Of a stretch of DNA of 64,000 nucleotides, positions 22,873-52,100 are shown in pieces. This stretch comes from Acytostelium subglobosum LB1. Its lineage: Eukaryota; Evosea; Eumycetozoa; Acytosteliales; Acytosteliaceae. The notes under the pieces were generated by a model. It saw only the letters and a program-made list of their open reading frames with translations. It searched no databases and had not been told where the DNA came from. The position numbers and the translations under genes were made by a program. Every line of letters begins with the position of its first letter. The first letter of the stretch is position 1. The stretch is from NCBI RefSeq assembly GCF_000787575.1, contig NW_012236525.1, forward strand, positions 387,686 through 451,685, read 5' to 3'.

Positions 22873-25800
22873 TTATTCTTGTGGCTGCTCTTGTAACAGA
22901 TACTCAATGTTGCGTTGGATGATGGCCTGTGTGACTGGCGGGCACTTGGCCTTGCCAATGCGCTCCAATTGAGTGATGGTCGCCGGATTCTTGTAGCCAA
23001 AGCGTCCAAAGCCTGGGAATCCAAAGCGGAACACCATGCTCATTGGATGAAGTGGATTGTCTGGCTGTGACACAAGGCTGGCCTTCCAATCTGAATAGTC
23101 CACTTGTTTGAGTGGTCTCATTGTAGAGATACCCGTACACAGATCATCCAAAGATACTGAAGTCTCATTGATGATATGGAACACCTTGATATTGCTGGCC
23201 ACGGCAGTATTGTAGTTTTCTGATTGGAGTGCCAATGAGACTATTGATGAACTGGCCCAGTTGACGGGCGACAGATTGAACATACCGCCACCACCTCCAA
23301 TCGTACTCTCGATGAGTGGATAGGCAGACATGTGTAGTATACCCTTGAGTAGTAGCCTAACAAAGTCATTGGGGTTGTCAACACCAGTGGCAGAATTGGC
23401 ATATACAGTGGCCGGTCTAAACATTAACACGGGTACACCTCTGACCTGCGCTTGTTTGACCAGTTGCTCAGCAATCAGTTTGGACTGATTATAACCGTTC
23501 ATCATGTCAAGGTTATCCAATGTTGGTGTGCTGGCCTCGGTGATCACTGAGGATCTGTCTGAGAATGTGCCAATGGTTGATACATGTGCCACACGGATGA
23601 TGTAGCTACCAGCGCAGGCCAGTCTAATAATCTCTTGTGTGCCAAGCACATTGGTGGCCTTCATGTTTGGATATGGGATGACCATGTTGACAACTGCACC
23701 ATTATGTAGAATTAGATTGACTTGGTTGGCCAGCTGAGTGAATGCATCAATGGACAGTCCGAACAGTGGTTGATCCAGACATCCAAGGACTGGTATGATT
23801 CGACTTGCCTGCTGCTCGGTCAAGCTCAGTTTGTACTTGTTGAGTAGATTGATCAGTCTATCCTTGGCCTCCTCCATGCTGGAGGTACCTCGAACGAGAC
23901 AATGGACCTTGTCAACACCTTGTTGTGAGAGCAACTCATACAGAAGGAATGATCCCAGGTATCCTGAAGCTCCAGTCAAGAACACATTGTTGCCAGTGGT
24001 TCCATTCAAAGGTGCTAAACTCTTTCCATTGATCTGTATAGTGTCATCCAACATCATCTCCTTGGTCCAATCAATGAATGATGTTTGAACATCCACCTCT
24101 CCCATATTCTCCTTTGCCATCTTGGCCAAAGTCTCCAAGTTATTGTTGTTGTTAAGTATAAATGCTGGCGAAACAGTGATGTTTGCTTTCTCTGTTGTTC
24201 ATGATTGGACGATGTGTAAGTAACTTGTTTGATTGATTGGATGGCTCGATGGCTGGGGAATGTTGACATTGCTTACCCTTTAGCAAGTTTGATAATCTGA
24301 TGGCACCAAGTGAGTCACCTCCAATGTTGGTGAAGGTCAGCTTGGACATATCAATGTCACTGGCTTGTTGCGAGTCAACTCCAAGGATCTGTCTGAGGTA
24401 GGTCTCCACCAGTCCTCCATTGTTTGAATCATCACGTAGTCCAACTTGAATGGAATCAATAGTGTCATACATTGTATTAATTCTCTCCTTGTAGAATTGA
24501 TACAAATGATTCCTACTATACTTTCCAGATCCAGTCAACAAGTGATTGTCCACAGTCCACACAGTATTGTCAATGGCAATAATCTTTGGTATCTCATAGT
24601 TGGCCAACTATAACATGATTGAGTGAGTGAGTGAGTATAGTGAGCGAGTGAGGTATGGACGTTGACTGACTTACCTTGATCTCAGTTGCTATCCTTTGGA
24701 TCTCCTTCATTACGATGTTCTTGAGTGGCAGACAATTGTCTTTGTCTTGGATCGTCGACTCATTGGTGATACCATGTTGCTCGAGGACACTCTTGCGTGG
24801 CATTACAACGGCCACAAGGAACGTCTTCAATGTGTTGCCATAGATGAACATCTGCTCGATTAGGTCACTGCCCAGGAAGTGGTTTTCCAGAGGCTCTGGT
24901 GCGACAAACTCTCCATTGCTTAGTTTGAAAGCATTCTTCTTTCGATCGATGATCTTGATCTTGCGTGGACCCAGTTGCTCGACAATATCGCCTGTCTTGA
25001 ACCATCCATCCTCTGTCCTCGAGTCATTGGTAAGCTGATCATTGCGGTAGTATCCTGAGCTCATTGTTGCCGACTTGACCACAAGCTCACCCCTGGGGTT
25101 GGGCTTGTCTTCTGGCGAGTATCCAAACTCTGGCACTGGCTCCAAACGGAATTGGATGTCCTCTGCAACGTATCCATCTACAAATATTCCAATGGCCTCG
25201 CTCAGACCATAAGAGTTGGCTATTCCAGTCTTTGGCCAACATCTCCTCATGAAGTTCATGACATCCTCGGATGTGGGCGCACCTCCAGTGACAATTGAGC
25301 TTACACGATTGCCCAACACTTGTGAGAACTGCTTGACAACCTTCTCCTCACAGTACTCTCTACTGCTCAGTGGGTGTGACTTGGTGAACTGCTCCAACTC
25401 ACTCTGGTATTGAGAGTAGATTAGGTTCCACATGCGTGGCACTGCCCAGAAGATGTGTGGTCGCAGCTCCTTGAGGTCGTCGAATAATGACTCCATACTG
25501 CCTGAGAATATACCAATCTTTGCACCATGATACAGCATCTTGTAATCAAATCTGCGCTGTGAATGTGACAGTGTGGCGAAACTGAGTGATGTGCCTGGAT
25601 ACTCGATGAATGACTTTGTGATCGACTGATTGAACTCTGAGTCCTTGATGATCACTCCCTTTGGAAGTCCTGTACTTCCACTCGTGTAGGCTGATCAAAG
25701 TGAGTGAAAGTGTGAGTGAGGGTTAGGGCTGGAATCATCCCATGACGATCCAATCTATCAATCAAACATACTTAGACTGAATATCTCGTAGGATTGAATT

Positions 25801-27096
25801 GGATTGTGATGTACATCCTTGACCTTGTATCCACCAGTGATCATCTCTGACAGGCGACGGAAGGTCACATTGTTTGGTATTCTTGATATGACATCCTGGT
25901 CCAGAGTATCCTCCATCTGAACGATCAACTTGATACCCTCATACTCCTTTGCAACCAATATATCCACAAGCAATGGTAATACACTATTTGATATAAACAT
26001 ACATGATGTCTCAGAGTTGGACAATGTCTCCACCAATGTATCATGATCTAATAGGGCCAAGTTAGGAATGATTGATTGAGTAGGTGAGAGAACATGATAT
26101 TATGGTACTCACTAACTTGATGATGAATTGGCACAACTGGCATGCCATACCAGAGACAGGCGAGATCAGCACAATACCATTCATAACAGTTATTGGCGCA
26201 TATTCCAACGAACGACCTCTAATTGATTGATTGATTGAGTGATGGTAAGTAAAACAAGTTATTGGAAGTATCCAAGTGATAACTTACCGATGGTATCAAA
26301 CTGACTAATGACCTGCCCAACATCTCAGTCTCCTCTTGGAATAGCTCATATGTCATCCAGACAAACTCTGCAAGTCCGTATGGATGCTCCTTTGAAATAG
26401 GGACCTTCCTCCTTGTTCCAATACAATGTCTATCCTTATGATCTCTAAATGAGTTCCTAAGTGAATGATAAGTTGTCTCTCCAACATTGGACAATGCCAT
26501 CGCCAGTTGTGACTCTAGAGAGTTTGGTCCAAAGTTAGTTAGTATGAATGTTTGGATGGATGTGATTGGAATGATTCCATTCAATTTGATTGATTTGGAT
26601 GATGATCGTACTTGTCTCAAGAGTGAATCTATGTGGTAGGGGAGCAGTGTCGGCATGATGATAACCAAGTGCCTTTTCATGTTTACGGATCAATGCCAAT
26701 CTTGCCTCTTCAATGGCCTTGTCATCTTGATCGACATTGTTGGATTCCAATGATGATGTTGATGATCTATCTGGAGTCTTGTTGGACAATGATTCATTGT
26801 ATTTTGTATAATACTTCTGATCTTTTTGCCAACACTTCTTGCAAAGACTCATTTCACGACATTCTGAACAAACATATCTCTCCTGTCCCAATTGCATCTG
26901 GCTTGTACAGCCAATACAAAAATATGTGGCCACTACATTATTGGATGCTGTTCATTCATTCATTCATTCATTACAGTGAGTAAGTTAATTTGGACAACAA
27001 AGTCAATCAATCAAACATACAATCCGACTTTTCCTCTTTGAGTACATGTTTCAAAGCGGACATCCTTGATTTGATTGAGTCCAATAATCCTGTCAT
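22873..27096 (-). CDS. Carboxylic-acid-reductase-like enzyme with N-terminal zinc finger
   Basis: Eight exons: 27096-27021, 26932-26612, 26514-26288, 26218-26113, 26047-25772, 25690-24675, 24607-24277 and 24185-22873, in frame to 1221 aa. Order of parts: a ZZ-like zinc finger (about residues 31-62, CIGC...CSEC...CKKC); an ANL adenylation domain (about 170-680) with P-loop TSGSTGLPKG, GYYRND, GWFKTGDI and KLSNGEFV; a carrier domain with phosphopantetheine site GGDSL (Ser near 773); and a thioester reductase with LTGASGYLG and YNQSK (Tyr/Lys catalytic pair). This is the layout of carboxylic acid reductases, which make aldehydes from acids using ATP and NADPH; the block GELVVKSATMSSGYYRND resembles bacterial CAR. 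All key residues seem intact. The acid substrate is unknown. No pathway cluster surrounds it. Confidence 0.88.
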
Positions 27097-27536: not shown

Positions 27537-28434
27537 TTACTTTCTCTTGTTGGCAACCTGCTTCTTGGTGCGGGCAACGTTGGCAGCCTTAACCATCTTT
27601 CTAACCTCGAGAGCAACCTTGTGGTTGACCTATATTATAGTTTGATTTGATTGATTGATTGATTGATGATGTTAACAATTGTTCGATATTCATTCATTCA
27701 TTAATGATCGTGCGAGTTGTGATGTTGCTGAGGTTGTTGATGGATTCCTGTCAAACTCAAAGTTGATCATGTTCGCGATAAGTTCGTTCCCAAACACAAA
27801 TCTGTACTAAATGTACTCGAGTAGTCTGTCGCTATTCAATCGAAATCAATCCGTATTGGTGTGCTGTCGCTGTATGTATCAACCGAACCTGCTGCTGCTG
27901 CTGTTGTTTGAATGATTGTGTATGTAATGTATATCGATACTTACGACCTTCTTGGCGATGCGAGCCTTGAAACGCTCGAAATCGGTGGAGGCAGCCTTCT
28001 TCTCATGAGCAGCGACGGCCTTGACAAGACGGAGTCCGCTGATCTTGGTGTCGAGATCGGCAGCCTTGATAGCCTTGTTGAGGGTACCAGTGCGAGCACC
28101 TCTCAAGATGTTGAGCTTCAACTTGGACAGAGAGATCCACTTCAAGTTGATGACGTGACGTGGGACACCGGTGGATGGACCGTGAACCAAGACCTATAGT
28201 TGTTGAATGATCGATGATTAGCTAATCTGTGTTTCTGTCGATGATGCTGATGCTGATGCCTGCAGTTGGATGATAGATTGATTGATTGATCGCGGATAGA
28301 GAGAGAGATAGATGACGTACTCTGTTTTGATCGAGGACATCGAGGATGATGGCAGTCTTGTTTCTGAAGGCGCCAAAGTTGATGAAGACGACGCGTCCAA
28401 TCTCAACGAACAAAGTGTACTTGCTAACCAACAT
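27537..28434 (-). CDS. rpl14: 60S ribosomal protein L14
   Basis: Three exons, 28434-28321, 28193-27945 and 27629-27537, in frame to 151 aa. eL14 is a component of the cytosolic large ribosomal subunit. The start [19 protein letters not shown] and the segment [21 protein letters not shown] are characteristic, and the protein ends in a basic tail ([12 protein letters not shown]). C-ending codon bias is strong, as for other highly expressed genes here. The second intron is long for this window (315 bp). Because ribosomal-protein introns often carry snoRNAs I inspected it, but saw no convincing C/D or H/ACA boxes. Confidence 0.96.
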
Positions 28435-31273: not shown

Positions 31274-32622
31274 ATGATGAAGTTGGCATTATTAACAACA
31301 ACATTGTTGTTGGTATCAGTTATAAGTGGAGAGATATTATCTGGACAATTACAGACTAATGATAATTGGTACCTATTGGACAAGTTTTGTTTGACTGAAG
31401 AAGACTCAACATTCATCGTCAATGTTGATTTCTCAAAGACACCAAATGCCAGTCTACTCCTCTACTCTGACCTCTCCACCAACTGGGGCACAATCGAGAG
31501 TTATCCATACTCATCATGTTACACAAGAGTAAGAGAGTTGACCAAGTTACCTTGTTATAACAATGTTGAGACTAATGTACCATTCAATTCAATTAGTTGA
31601 GGTCAGTTAGTACAACTATAAATATAAATACACCAGAGTTGATGGGAAAGTCATTGGACGTTGGCCAGAAACGTGATAGATGGTGGTATCTTGTCTTTGC
31701 CAACTGTGGATCAAATGATGGCAGTGACTTTATAATTGATATCCCATCATACTCGATTATAATGAAGAATGGAGGTGATTCGTTCAACTCTATCATCTCG
31801 GCAGACCAGCAGAACATCCCTCACGCACAGATATTCTTTATTATCTTCTTCTTCATCCTTTTGGTCGTTACTATGATCAATATTGTATTCCTTGTACAAC
31901 GTAACTTGGAGTCAAAGGTGATGAAGTTGTTCTCTGTAGTGCTCCTGTTCAAGATCCTGGCCCTATTCGTTTGCCTCACCTATTGGGCATACTTCTTCCA
32001 TCAAGGCTATGGTATGGATGCTATCAACTTGGCTGGTAACACCATTGACCTCGTATCAAGATCATTCTTCATTCTCTTGCTCCTCCTGGTTGCACAAGGA
32101 TGGACCATCTCTCCATACTATGGTGGAATGGGTACTAAAGTGATTGCCGCTGGAGTATTCTTTGTCATCCTCATCCTCTCAATCTGCATCTACCTGATCC
32201 CCAACGTCACCACCATGCCAACAAGAATGTACATATTCTTCTACGATACCATCCCTGGTTACGCACTAATGGCCTTCTTCCTGGCCATCATGATCTACTT
32301 CATGGTCCTGTCACGCTCCACCTACATCAAGCAAGTTGATCACATCAAGAAGAAGTTCTTCCTGTTCTTTGGCGTGACTTTCACATTCTGGTTCCTTATG
32401 CTACCAATCAGCGTTGCCTTGTCTCACTTCTTGGAGACTTGGGTTCGCCAAAAGACCGTTGTAATCTTCAACCTCTGTGTTGACAGCATCTTCTTCCTGA
32501 TCATCACGGTCTTGTTCCGCGCCTCAAAGACCAACCCATACGTCCACATCCTCAACCTCGATCAACAAGAGAAGGGTGTCCGTCTTGATGACAAGGGATA
32601 CCAAGGTGAGGCCTCAGCCTAA
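31274..32622 (+). CDS. GOST-family seven-helix membrane protein (GPR180/TMEM145-like)
   Basis: Two reading frames, 31274-31576 and 31597-32622, form 442 aa if the intervening 20 bases are an intron. A signal peptide (residues 1-19) precedes a luminal/extracellular domain with Cys and N-glycosylation sites (NAS). Then come seven hydrophobic helices: the first near IFFIIFFFILLVVTMINIVF, then VAQGWTISP at helix 4 and a helix 6 with FFLFFGVTFTFWFL. This is the GpcrRhopsn4 pattern of GPR180, TMEM145 and related proteins, thought to act in Golgi/secretory trafficking rather than as classical G-protein receptors. Without the 20-nt intron the frame is broken between the luminal domain and the helices. 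Confidence 0.78.
31577..31596 (+). other. Possible 20-nt intron (or frame break) in the GOST gene
   Basis: GTACCATTCAATTCAATTAG starts GT, ends AG and resembles the 3' half of other introns here (CAAT-rich, then TAG). Its removal restores one open frame at exactly the point where the upstream frame ends (stop at 31598-31600) and the downstream frame opens (stop at 31594-31596). A collapsed repeat in the assembly or a one-base error are alternatives. Confidence 0.45.
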
Positions 32623-49115: not shown

Positions 49116-52100
49116 CTAGTTGACATTGTTAAGCTTTGATTTCTGGCTGGATGGTTTGAATATCTTGAGTATCTCCCTCTTCTTGTCTCTATCTCCCTTC
49201 TCTCTCTCCTTGTCTCGGTCATTCTCGCGATTAGCCTCTAGGCTCTTGTCGTTCTCTATGTCTCTATCGCGCTCCTTTGACTTGGCCTCGTCACCATCCA
49301 TTTTGGGCGACGACTTGCTGGAACCCTCCTCATCGTCGGTGGTCGTGGTGGGCTTGACACGCTTGTTCGGACCGCTGTCGCTGCCATCGTCGTCCAGTCT
49401 CCTCTTGTTGACCTCCTCCTGAGATGCATCCTGGCCTGGTTCGATTTGGTCTGGTCTGGGTGATGAGTGGAGTGGTTGCTCGCCGCCCTTTGTATCCACA
49501 GATGTCAACTCCTTCTGACTCTCTGTGCTTGTCTCCTTGGTTGATGATGGAGAGGCAGATGACGATGCAGCAGGCTCTGTCTCCTTCTCCTCCTTTCCTT
49601 CCTTTCTTGGTTCGTCTGGCAGTGTCTCAGATGAGGCAGATGGAGCCTTAGATGATTCCTGTGGCTTCTCCTTCTCAGTTTCCTTCTCCTTCTCCTTCTC
49701 TTGTGCTGCGGCTGGTGGTGTGGCTGCGGATGGTTCCTTTTCCTTTGATGGCTCCTTTGATGGTTCCTTCTCTGATTGTTCGACCTTCTCAGCGTCCTTC
49801 TCCTTCTCCTTGTCCTTCTCGCTTTCTTCCATTGTGACATTCTCCTCCTTATCCTTGTTTGTTACATCAGATGTTGTTGGTGGGGGTGGTGTAGCTGACT
49901 TTGGTGCATCCTCAACCATCTTCTCCTTTGGTGCTGCCACCTCCTCCTTCTCCTTTGGTGCTGTTGTTGTCTCCTTCTCTGTGGGCTTGGATTCCTTTGG
50001 TTCGGCATCCTCACTCATTTGAACATCTGTTTCGCGCACTTTCTCCCCTTCTGGAAGCTCTCTCTCTATCTGTCGTGCTCTCTGACGTTCTCTCTCGCGC
50101 TCCCTCTCTCGCTCTCTCTCAAGCTCACGCTCGCGTTCTCTCTCGCGTTCTCTCTCACGCTCTCTCTCAAGTACGCGCTCACGTTCAGAGTCTCCTCTCT
50201 CGGGCTCCCTTTCTATCTCCCTTTCGCTTGATTGCGCTCTGGAGCTGAGTTCGCCAAGAAGTGGAAGTGTGTTCTCCTGTCTGGATGACTTCATGCGATT
50301 CTCATCAAATCCACGTCTGTCTGCTGGTCTGTCAATGTCCATGAGCTCGCGGAGTTTAGACAGTCCACTCTCCTCCAACTTGTTGGGGCCAGAGCCACCG
50401 CCATTGTGGTGGAAGTCCTCCATCAGACCATGCTTGGTCTCTGGTGAAGATGCAGAGTGCATCTCCTTGCCCTTGCTCTTTTGTGTGCTCTTGTTCTTCA
50501 GCGAGATGTCGAGCTCATTCGATGAGGGCAGGCTGTTGTTCCTCTCCTCGCCAGCCATGGCGATCTCAGAGAGCTCGGGAAGGCTGGGCACGCCACCAGG
50601 GCCGTTGTTGTTGTTGTTGTTGTTGATGCCGCCGAGGTTGCTGTTGACACCACCGAGGTTGGGACGGCCATTCCTGTGCTGATCGACGGCCATCGCACGA
50701 CCTGGTGAACCTGGCTCGATGGTCGTTGGGTTGAGCTTCTCGTTGTACTCTCCACCTGGCTCCTTCTCGTCTCTGCCGTCTGCCGTTCCATCCTTTTGTT
50801 TGCTAATGAGTATCTTGAGTTGGGCAAAGCGGGCCTGGATCTGCTTGTTCTGTGGATCAAGCTCGGCAGCCCTCTTGTACGCATCCAACGAGTCGGTGTA
50901 CTGGTTGCAGCTCTCGTACAGGGCGCCCAGGTCGTACCAGACCTCGGACACGTAAGGGTTGATCCTGATGGCGCGGGTGTATGCGTCCAATGCGTCACGG
51001 AACTGATTGATCTGGTAGTAGAGCACACCGATCGAGCACCAGAAGGTCGGGTTTCTCGCGTCTCTGTACACGGCCTGCTGATAGGCATCGTAGGCCTTCT
51101 TGTATTTCTGCTGGATCATGTAGCAACGTCCTAGCAGGTACCAGGTCTGAGCGTCCGAGGCGTCGGCATCGATCGATCGCAACAGGAAGCTGATGGCATG
51201 CTCCTGATTGGTGAAGGATGGGTTATGATGGTAGAGCAATCCCAATGATTGCAGTACCTTTGGATGTGATCCATTCTCCTTCAAAGCTGCCTCAAATGCA
51301 TCCTTTGCTTGGTTATACTATGTACAATTGATTGATTGATCGTGTTAGTGTTGTGTGTATGATTGATTGATCTTCATTCACATCACGTGATGTGATGTGA
51401 TGTACTTACATCTTTCTGCATCTCATAGACTAAACCGATCTGACAGAGAATGTCGGCAGAGGTGAGAGGACGGGGAGGGTTCTTGAGGAGACTGTTAAAG
51501 TACTCCAAACTCTGCTCACTCTTGCCCTGATGCTTGTAGAGTATACCGAGACGGTAGAATATCTCATTGGCCTTGTCAAACTTGTTGTCCATCTTTAGCA
51601 CTGCAGTGAATGCCTCCTCTGCATGCTCATACGAACCATATCGGTCATAAAGTATTCCGATACCATACCACAAGTTAGGGTCCTAAGATGATGGCATTGT
51701 AGATGTTAGAGTCTTGTTGTGTTGATTGATTGATTGAACGAACGAATGATTGAATGAACGAATGAGTCCGTTACCTTTGGATTGGGAAGATGATAGAGTG
51801 CATGCTGATAGGCACTGTAGGCCTTTTGGAGATCGTCCAACATGAGGTAGCAGTTGCCAAGGTCGCCCCAAGCCTCGCCATTCTTCTCATCAATGGTGAT
51901 GATGCGTTGGAAGAACTCGGCGGCCTTTGTGAATTGCTCCTTGGACTTGAGAATGGAGCCGATCTGGGACATTGCCTTGATCGAATGTGGATTATGCCTC
52001 AGCACCATCTCGTAAGAGAAGATTGCCTTCTCATGATTGCCCAACACCTCTGCCACCGAGCCCAGTTGAGTCCAAACGATCTCATTCTGTTCTCTAAACT

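Follow-up and report, generated by a model that had tools for sequence, protein, structure and literature searches.

Carboxylic acid reductases (CARs) have been divided into types I to V, which come from bacteria or fungi or are specialists for aromatic amino acids (PMC10168641). The residues known to be essential for their activity are the His of a PxxH motif, the Glu of a GE motif, the Ser of the carrier domain, the Tyr and Lys of YxxxK and a GxxNxxD motif, and fungal CARs are distinguished by a Ser in the catalytic triad, a Lys after GE and the absence of the A10 Lys (PMC5826065). CARs stop mainly at the aldehyde, with over-reduction as an intrinsic side activity (PMC10168641). Among the thioester reductase (R) domains of other systems, the myxalamid R domain carries out a four-electron reduction to an alcohol, and the R domains of Lys2, saframycin and nostocyclopeptide halt at the aldehyde (PMC2835699).

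The PKSs of social amoebae carry R domains of the release type. Dictyostelium discoideum has 40 PKSs, 21 of which carry offloading domains, and 19 of these 21 are most likely thioester reductases (PMC12828403). The literature on CARs and Dictyostelium together yielded two passing co-mentions only. Here we describe a CAR-like gene in a 64,000-nucleotide stretch of contig NW_012236525.1 of the dictyostelid Acytostelium subglobosum LB1 (hereafter the window). The gene is real and well formed, its ancestry is unusual, and the zinc-finger label given to its N-terminus in an initial annotation is doubtful.

Results

A complete gene of eight exons lies among dictyostelid neighbors

The gene model, in order of transcription after the coding sequence as a whole, consists of the following parts.

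22873..27096, minus strand: complete coding sequence of the CAR-like gene, ATG to TAA; eight exons, 1228 residues, introns all GT-AG
27021..27096, minus strand: exon 1, N-terminal 25 residues, from the hand-joined gene model
26612..26947, minus strand: exon 2, Cys6 finger and low-complexity linker; in-frame codon score highest of the frames
26515..26611, minus strand: intron 2, 97 bp, GT-AG, with a TACTAAC branch-point-like sequence, at the boundary of the finger exon and the adenylation exons
26288..26514, minus strand: exon 3, where adenylation homology begins (NF041592 match from residue 143)
26113..26218, minus strand: exon 4, 106 bases, from the gene model
25772..26047, minus strand: exon 5, from the gene model
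24675..25690, minus strand: exon 6, core of the adenylation domain, with TSGSTG, SH383, VPEFGY...PRGEL, TGDI and DRKKNAFKLSNGE601F
24277..24607, minus strand: exon 7, A10 lysine (LLTGSGK708) and carrier motif GGDS778L
22873..24191, minus strand: exon 8, last part of the carrier domain together with the whole R domain, from the gene model

When the eight exons were joined manually at GT-AG boundaries, they gave a single frame of 1228 residues that opens with an ATG at 27096 and closes with a TAA whose last base is 22873, so that the model fills the interval of the initial annotation exactly. The seven introns of that annotation were also correct, as were its core motifs, all of which were found in the protein (TSGSTGLPKG, GELVVKSATMSSGYYRND, GGDSL, LTGASGYLG and YNQSK). 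In a codon-usage test trained on the other genes within the window, the chosen frame scored above both other frames in seven of the eight exons. The sole exception was exon 4, whose frame was assigned because homology fixes it. Short tetranucleotide repeats of the TGAT/TTCA type were abundant in the introns (24192-26947) and in the intergenic region at 27620-27740 (gattgattgattg, attcattcattc) and not in the exons.

The gene lies on the minus strand between a SAP-domain gene and RPL14. The neighboring mhcA is a close relative of D. discoideum myosin II, with which it aligns over 639 residues at 1238 bits (∼83% identity, judged by eye), so that the host is a dictyostelid. The G+C content of the window is 45%. 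Bacterial contamination of the assembly was ruled out by the seven spliceosomal introns and by the dictyostelid neighbors, namely myosin II, RPL14, the SAP-domain gene and an Alg9-like mannosyltransferase. No biosynthetic gene cluster was seen, and the neighbors scanned for domains were housekeeping-like. Elsewhere in the window, positions 31597-32622 encode a seven-helix membrane protein of the GPR180/TMEM145 type (PF10192, 6e-41), and the minus strand at 49116-51317 encodes a TPR protein with a long charged tail rich in RE, RD and KE, which we take to be possibly a co-repressor of the Cyc8/TrfA kind.

The protein has the domain order and the essential residues of a CAR

Four domains were placed on the gene model.

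26835..26918, minus strand: Cys6 ZZ/B-box-like finger, residues 36-63, CxxC-x11-CxxC-x5-CxxC; profile matches below threshold
24461..26500, minus strand: CAR-type adenylation domain, residues 143-728, spanning introns; NF041592 310 bits, tree support 100/100
24121..24403, minus strand: phosphopantetheine carrier domain, residues 748-813, Ser778 at 24311-24313; best listed matches are bacterial CARs
22894..23988, minus strand: thioester reductase domain of the PKS/NRPS-release type, residues 858-1222; T995, Y1023, K1027, A1050 and the CPPV C-terminus

The order is thus finger, adenylation (A), carrier (T) and thioester reductase (R), and the A-T-R order within one chain is one of the marks of a CAR in the mechanistic sense. 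The initial annotation had described a CAR-like A-T-R enzyme with intact core motifs and had proposed a profile search of its ANL, PP-binding and NAD-binding-4 domains. That description holds: Pfam matched AMP-binding (2.7e-44), PP-binding (4.9e-7) and NAD_binding_4 (3.8e-52) in this order, and the bacterial CAR model NF041592 gave a collinear match over residues 143-1158 of 453.9 bits, a score far short of the equivalog cut-off of 1300 bits. The best solved relatives of the protein were bacterial CARs (E 1e-91). The essential residues are present as H383, E601, S778, Y1023, K1027 and G1059-N1062-D1065, and in the PxxH motif the Pro is replaced by Thr (T380).

Compared with the bacterial type I CARs SrCAR, MmCAR and NiCAR (PDB 5msp, 5mso and 5msc), the protein has the same A-T-R order and an overall identity of ∼31-33%. 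It shares with them H383, the E601-Phe pair, the A10 Lys, GGDSL, a T/Y/K triad with Thr and the VPELGY...PRGEL motif. It differs from them in lying outside their clade, in having an R domain of the PKS/NRPS type with A1050 at the position of SrCAR D998, in the T for P of PxxH, in the Cys6 finger and in its seven introns. With the fungal CARs of types II-IV, compared here through the one solved R domain of NcCAR, it has in common the A-T-R order and an SDR-type R domain; the NcCAR R domain (8aep) is a weak match (42 bits, 19% identity). The residues that mark the fungal types are not those found here, where T995, GEF and K708 stand instead. All three are the bacterial choices, namely Thr in the triad, Phe following GE and Lys at A10. 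In a search for closer CARs outside the Actinobacteria, genomes with a strong match were rare, at one in 398 for Pseudomonadota and five in 149 for Actinomycetota. The combination of finger, A, T and R was not found elsewhere in the sequences searched, which include no dictyostelid genomes.

The two halves of the enzyme have different nearest sampled relatives

Scored alone, the A half matched NF041592 with 310 bits, compared with 110 bits for the next family, and its best PDB match was a CAR A domain (E 1.5e-63), with luciferases at ∼1e-18. In a tree of A-domain cores rooted on NRPS A domains, with acyl-CoA ligases sampled from bacteria, the A domain joined 15 bacterial CARs with support of 100/100. 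The bacterial CARs were monophyletic without it (100/99), so that the slime-mould domain is their sister and is not nested among them. The T domain agreed, in that the 25 best matches listed were all bacterial CAR carriers. Among the sequences compared was a CAR-like reading frame that is cut off by the end of an IMG/VR 'viral' contig (L081, 4989-8153) and whose A domain groups with a Magnetospira CAR (100/99).

The R half gave a different result. Alone, it scored 245 bits on the Thioester-redct model TIGR01746, above the cut-off of 213, and its 132 bits on the CAR model were fewer than those for Lys2 (169) and MxcG (168). On profiles that we built, it scored 312 bits as a PKS/NRPS R domain versus 132 bits as a CAR R domain. 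It has the NAD(P)H-binding TGxxGxxG motif and the T/Y/K catalytic residues, together with HNGA, FRP and a C-terminal CPPV, which are motifs of the PKS/NRPS type. A structural model of exon 8 (pLDDT 81, from a 16-row alignment) was nearest to the terminal R domain of the myxalamid system (Z 46.0, 2.3 Å, 378 residues), followed by a Streptomyces PKS thioreductase (Z 42.7) and then by CAR R domains (Z ∼36). In the R tree, the CAR R domains formed a clade (100/100) that excluded the slime-mould R domain, which fell on a long branch among cyanobacterial PKS/NRPS R domains (81/88); the slime-mould row had a long branch in every tree.

The terminal R domains of PKSs and NRPSs (MxaA, 4u7w/4w4t; S. coelicolor, 8v1x; cyanobacterial T-R proteins; NRPS R domains) have HNGA and CPPV in common with the slime-mould R domain, to which that of MxaA is 33% identical (Z 46) and cyanobacterial R domains are 35-43% identical. 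In contrast to these, the slime-mould R domain is fused to a CAR-type A-T loading part and belongs to no PKS/NRPS assembly line. Stand-alone proteins made of a carrier and an R domain, ∼505-546 residues long, are encoded in many cyanobacterial genomes (L099-L112), and their R domains are 37-41% identical to that of the slime mould. These proteins look like the HglB/HetM type of heterocyst glycolipid synthesis.

We conclude that the gene probably encodes a single-chain CAR-like acid reductase, with an A-T part of CAR ancestry and an R domain from the lineage of PKS/NRPS release domains. A domain swap between a CAR and a PKS/NRPS R domain is likely and not proven, because the R branch is long and a sister position to the CAR R domains was not rejected (AU p = 0.26). 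One explanation without a swap is that the protein is a deep-branching ordinary CAR, inherited or transferred as one A-T-R unit, and that the R domains of bacterial CARs diverged fast on their own stem. Consistent with this idea, A and T each group with CARs, the clade of CAR R domains has a long stem, and grouping of the slime-mould R domain with those of CARs was not rejected in the tree test just cited. SrCAR D998 reportedly guards against over-reduction (Gahloth et al., 2017), and the Asp at this position is also missing from some bacterial CARs, such as L024 (FRSS), L017 and L081, so that the position is not invariant among CARs; the L081 frame has FRPS in place of the FRSD usual in CARs. 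Against it, the R domain scored lower on the CAR-R profile (132 bits) than every PKS/NRPS R domain compared (148-188 bits), its own score on the PKS/NRPS profile was much higher, its nearest solved fold is the myxalamid R domain, and it shares the CPPV C-terminus with PKS/NRPS R domains. We regard an ordinary origin as one unit as rather unlikely, though credible.

A simple transfer from bacteria, an origin that the initial annotation had raised, is not supported. The A domain is sister to the sampled bacterial CARs and not nested among them, and the R domain is of the PKS/NRPS-release type and not of the CAR type.

The A domain resembles CARs more closely than bacterial acyl-CoA ligases

In a different origin, a long-chain acyl-CoA synthetase (ACSL) of eukaryotes would have supplied the A domain, which became fused to a PKS-type T-R part, and the CAR likeness of the domain would be convergent or ancestral. 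The DRKKNAFKLSNGEFVAPEPLEN stretch of the A domain is ligase-like, the domain scored 235 bits on a bacterial-ligase profile on which CARs reached at most 200, and the ligases in our tree were sampled from bacteria, motif-pattern searches of the sequence collections having found no eukaryotic ACSL. Against this, the A domain scored 344 bits on the CAR-A profile versus 207 for the best ligase, and it has the motif VPE(L/F)GY...D.P.PRGEL, in the form VPEFGY...PRGEL. This motif was present in all sampled CARs, a few of which vary at the E or the L; the long-chain acyl-CoA ligases of bacteria in the comparison lacked it. The A10 loop (LLTG) and the carrier domain are also of the CAR type. Grouping of the A domain with bacterial ligases was rejected (AU p = 0.038), which eliminates an ordinary bacterial-type acyl-CoA ligase. 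We consider an ACSL origin improbable. These results bear out the earlier proposal that the A domain is nearer to bacterial CARs than to Lys2, and it is nearer to them than to FadD as well.

The N-terminal finger is a Cys6 motif below all curated cut-offs

The finger contains three CxxC pairs (C36/C39, C51/C54 and C60/C63). It scored 11.3-17.5 bits on the ZZ model (PF00569), below the gathering cut-off of 21.4, and 17.7-21.2 bits on an ANCHR-like B-box model with a cut-off of 27; B-box, FYVE and RING-like models were equally weak, and no Pfam zinc-finger model matched at its cut-off. The stretch after C63 (KKCWQKDQKYYTKYNES) contains no His and so lacks the terminal His pair that, with three Cys pairs, makes up the two zinc sites of a ZZ finger. 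Modeled alone, the finger exon gave an uninformative structure (pLDDT 49). Thus, of the ZZ-like zinc finger proposed initially, the three CxxC pairs stand, and the ZZ assignment is weak (17.5 versus 21.4 bits, no final His pair). Because the finger falls under every curated cut-off, 'ZZ-like' describes it at the level of motif only, and we call it a Cys6 finger because the ZZ score is low, the His pair is absent and other models are equally weak.

We considered the possibility that finger and enzyme are encoded by two genes, or that alternative transcripts yield an enzyme that lacks the finger and begins at an in-frame Met of exon 3. A-domain homology begins in exon 3, such a Met lies close to the start of that exon (QLAMALSN), and the finger scores below all curated cut-offs. 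However, intron 2 is only 97 bp long and contains TACTAAC, which leaves no space for a separate terminator and promoter, and the intron phases and codon frame are consistent across the finger-enzyme join. We consider such a division of the locus very improbable.

A Lys2-type aminoadipate reductase is refuted, since the match to TIGR03443 (170 bits) is confined to residues 758-1162 in the R half, membership needs a match along the A domain and more than 1030 bits, and the A half, which is of the CAR type, did not match TIGR03443 at an E value of 1e-20 or below.

Discussion

The conserved residues suggest how the predicted acid reductase of mixed CAR and PKS/NRPS ancestry may act. The A domain (H383, E601 and K708) would activate a free carboxylic acid with ATP to an acyl-AMP and would then load the acyl group onto the phosphopantetheine of Ser778, for which a host phosphopantetheinyl transferase would be needed. 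The R domain would reduce the thioester with a hydride from NADPH, releasing an aldehyde, and may carry the reduction on to the alcohol. The Cys6 finger may serve as a tether or regulator of the enzyme and would take no part in the chemistry. By its residues, the enzyme probably works like a CAR, though it is probably not a simply transferred CAR.

Since CARs by default make aldehydes, and since the nearest solved fold to the R domain is the alcohol-making myxalamid domain, an aldehyde is the expected product by analogy and an alcohol a real possibility. When the Pro of PxxH was changed in NcCAR, activity on an aromatic acid went down and activity on hexanoic acid went up (PMC5826065), so that T380 at this position is a weak hint of aliphatic substrates. 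The putative substrate may be a medium- or long-chain aliphatic acid or a polyketide-derived acid.

As to ancestry, the A-T part would be a deep branch of the CAR lineage that lies beyond every bacterial CAR sampled, and the R domain would stem from the PKS/NRPS-release lineage. Dictyostelid PKSs with C-terminal thioester reductases bear such domains and are predicted to release their products reductively in the same lineage of organisms (PMC12828403); we liken them by description and not by sequence, and the slime-mould protein, unlike them, has no ketosynthase or other PKS domain. The 19 likely thioester reductases of the D. discoideum PKSs mean that a possible source of the R domain is present in the lineage. 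A tentative extension is that the protein is a chimera that arose in social amoebae from a CAR-lineage A-T part, an R domain captured from a PKS and a Cys6 finger at the N-terminus, and that its MxaA-like R domain, which lacks the CAR Asp, may reduce free acids by four electrons to alcohols; we hold this fuller version to be possible rather than probable.

As sister to all sampled bacterial CARs, the A domain would provide a new root for the A-T part of the family. The mixed ancestry suggests that R domains can be exchanged naturally between CARs and PKSs, a swap of the kind attempted in enzyme engineering. If the four-electron reading is true, the protein would be an acid-to-alcohol enzyme within one chain. 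The enzyme would also allow social amoebae, which signal with polyketides, to convert free acids directly into aldehydes or alcohols.
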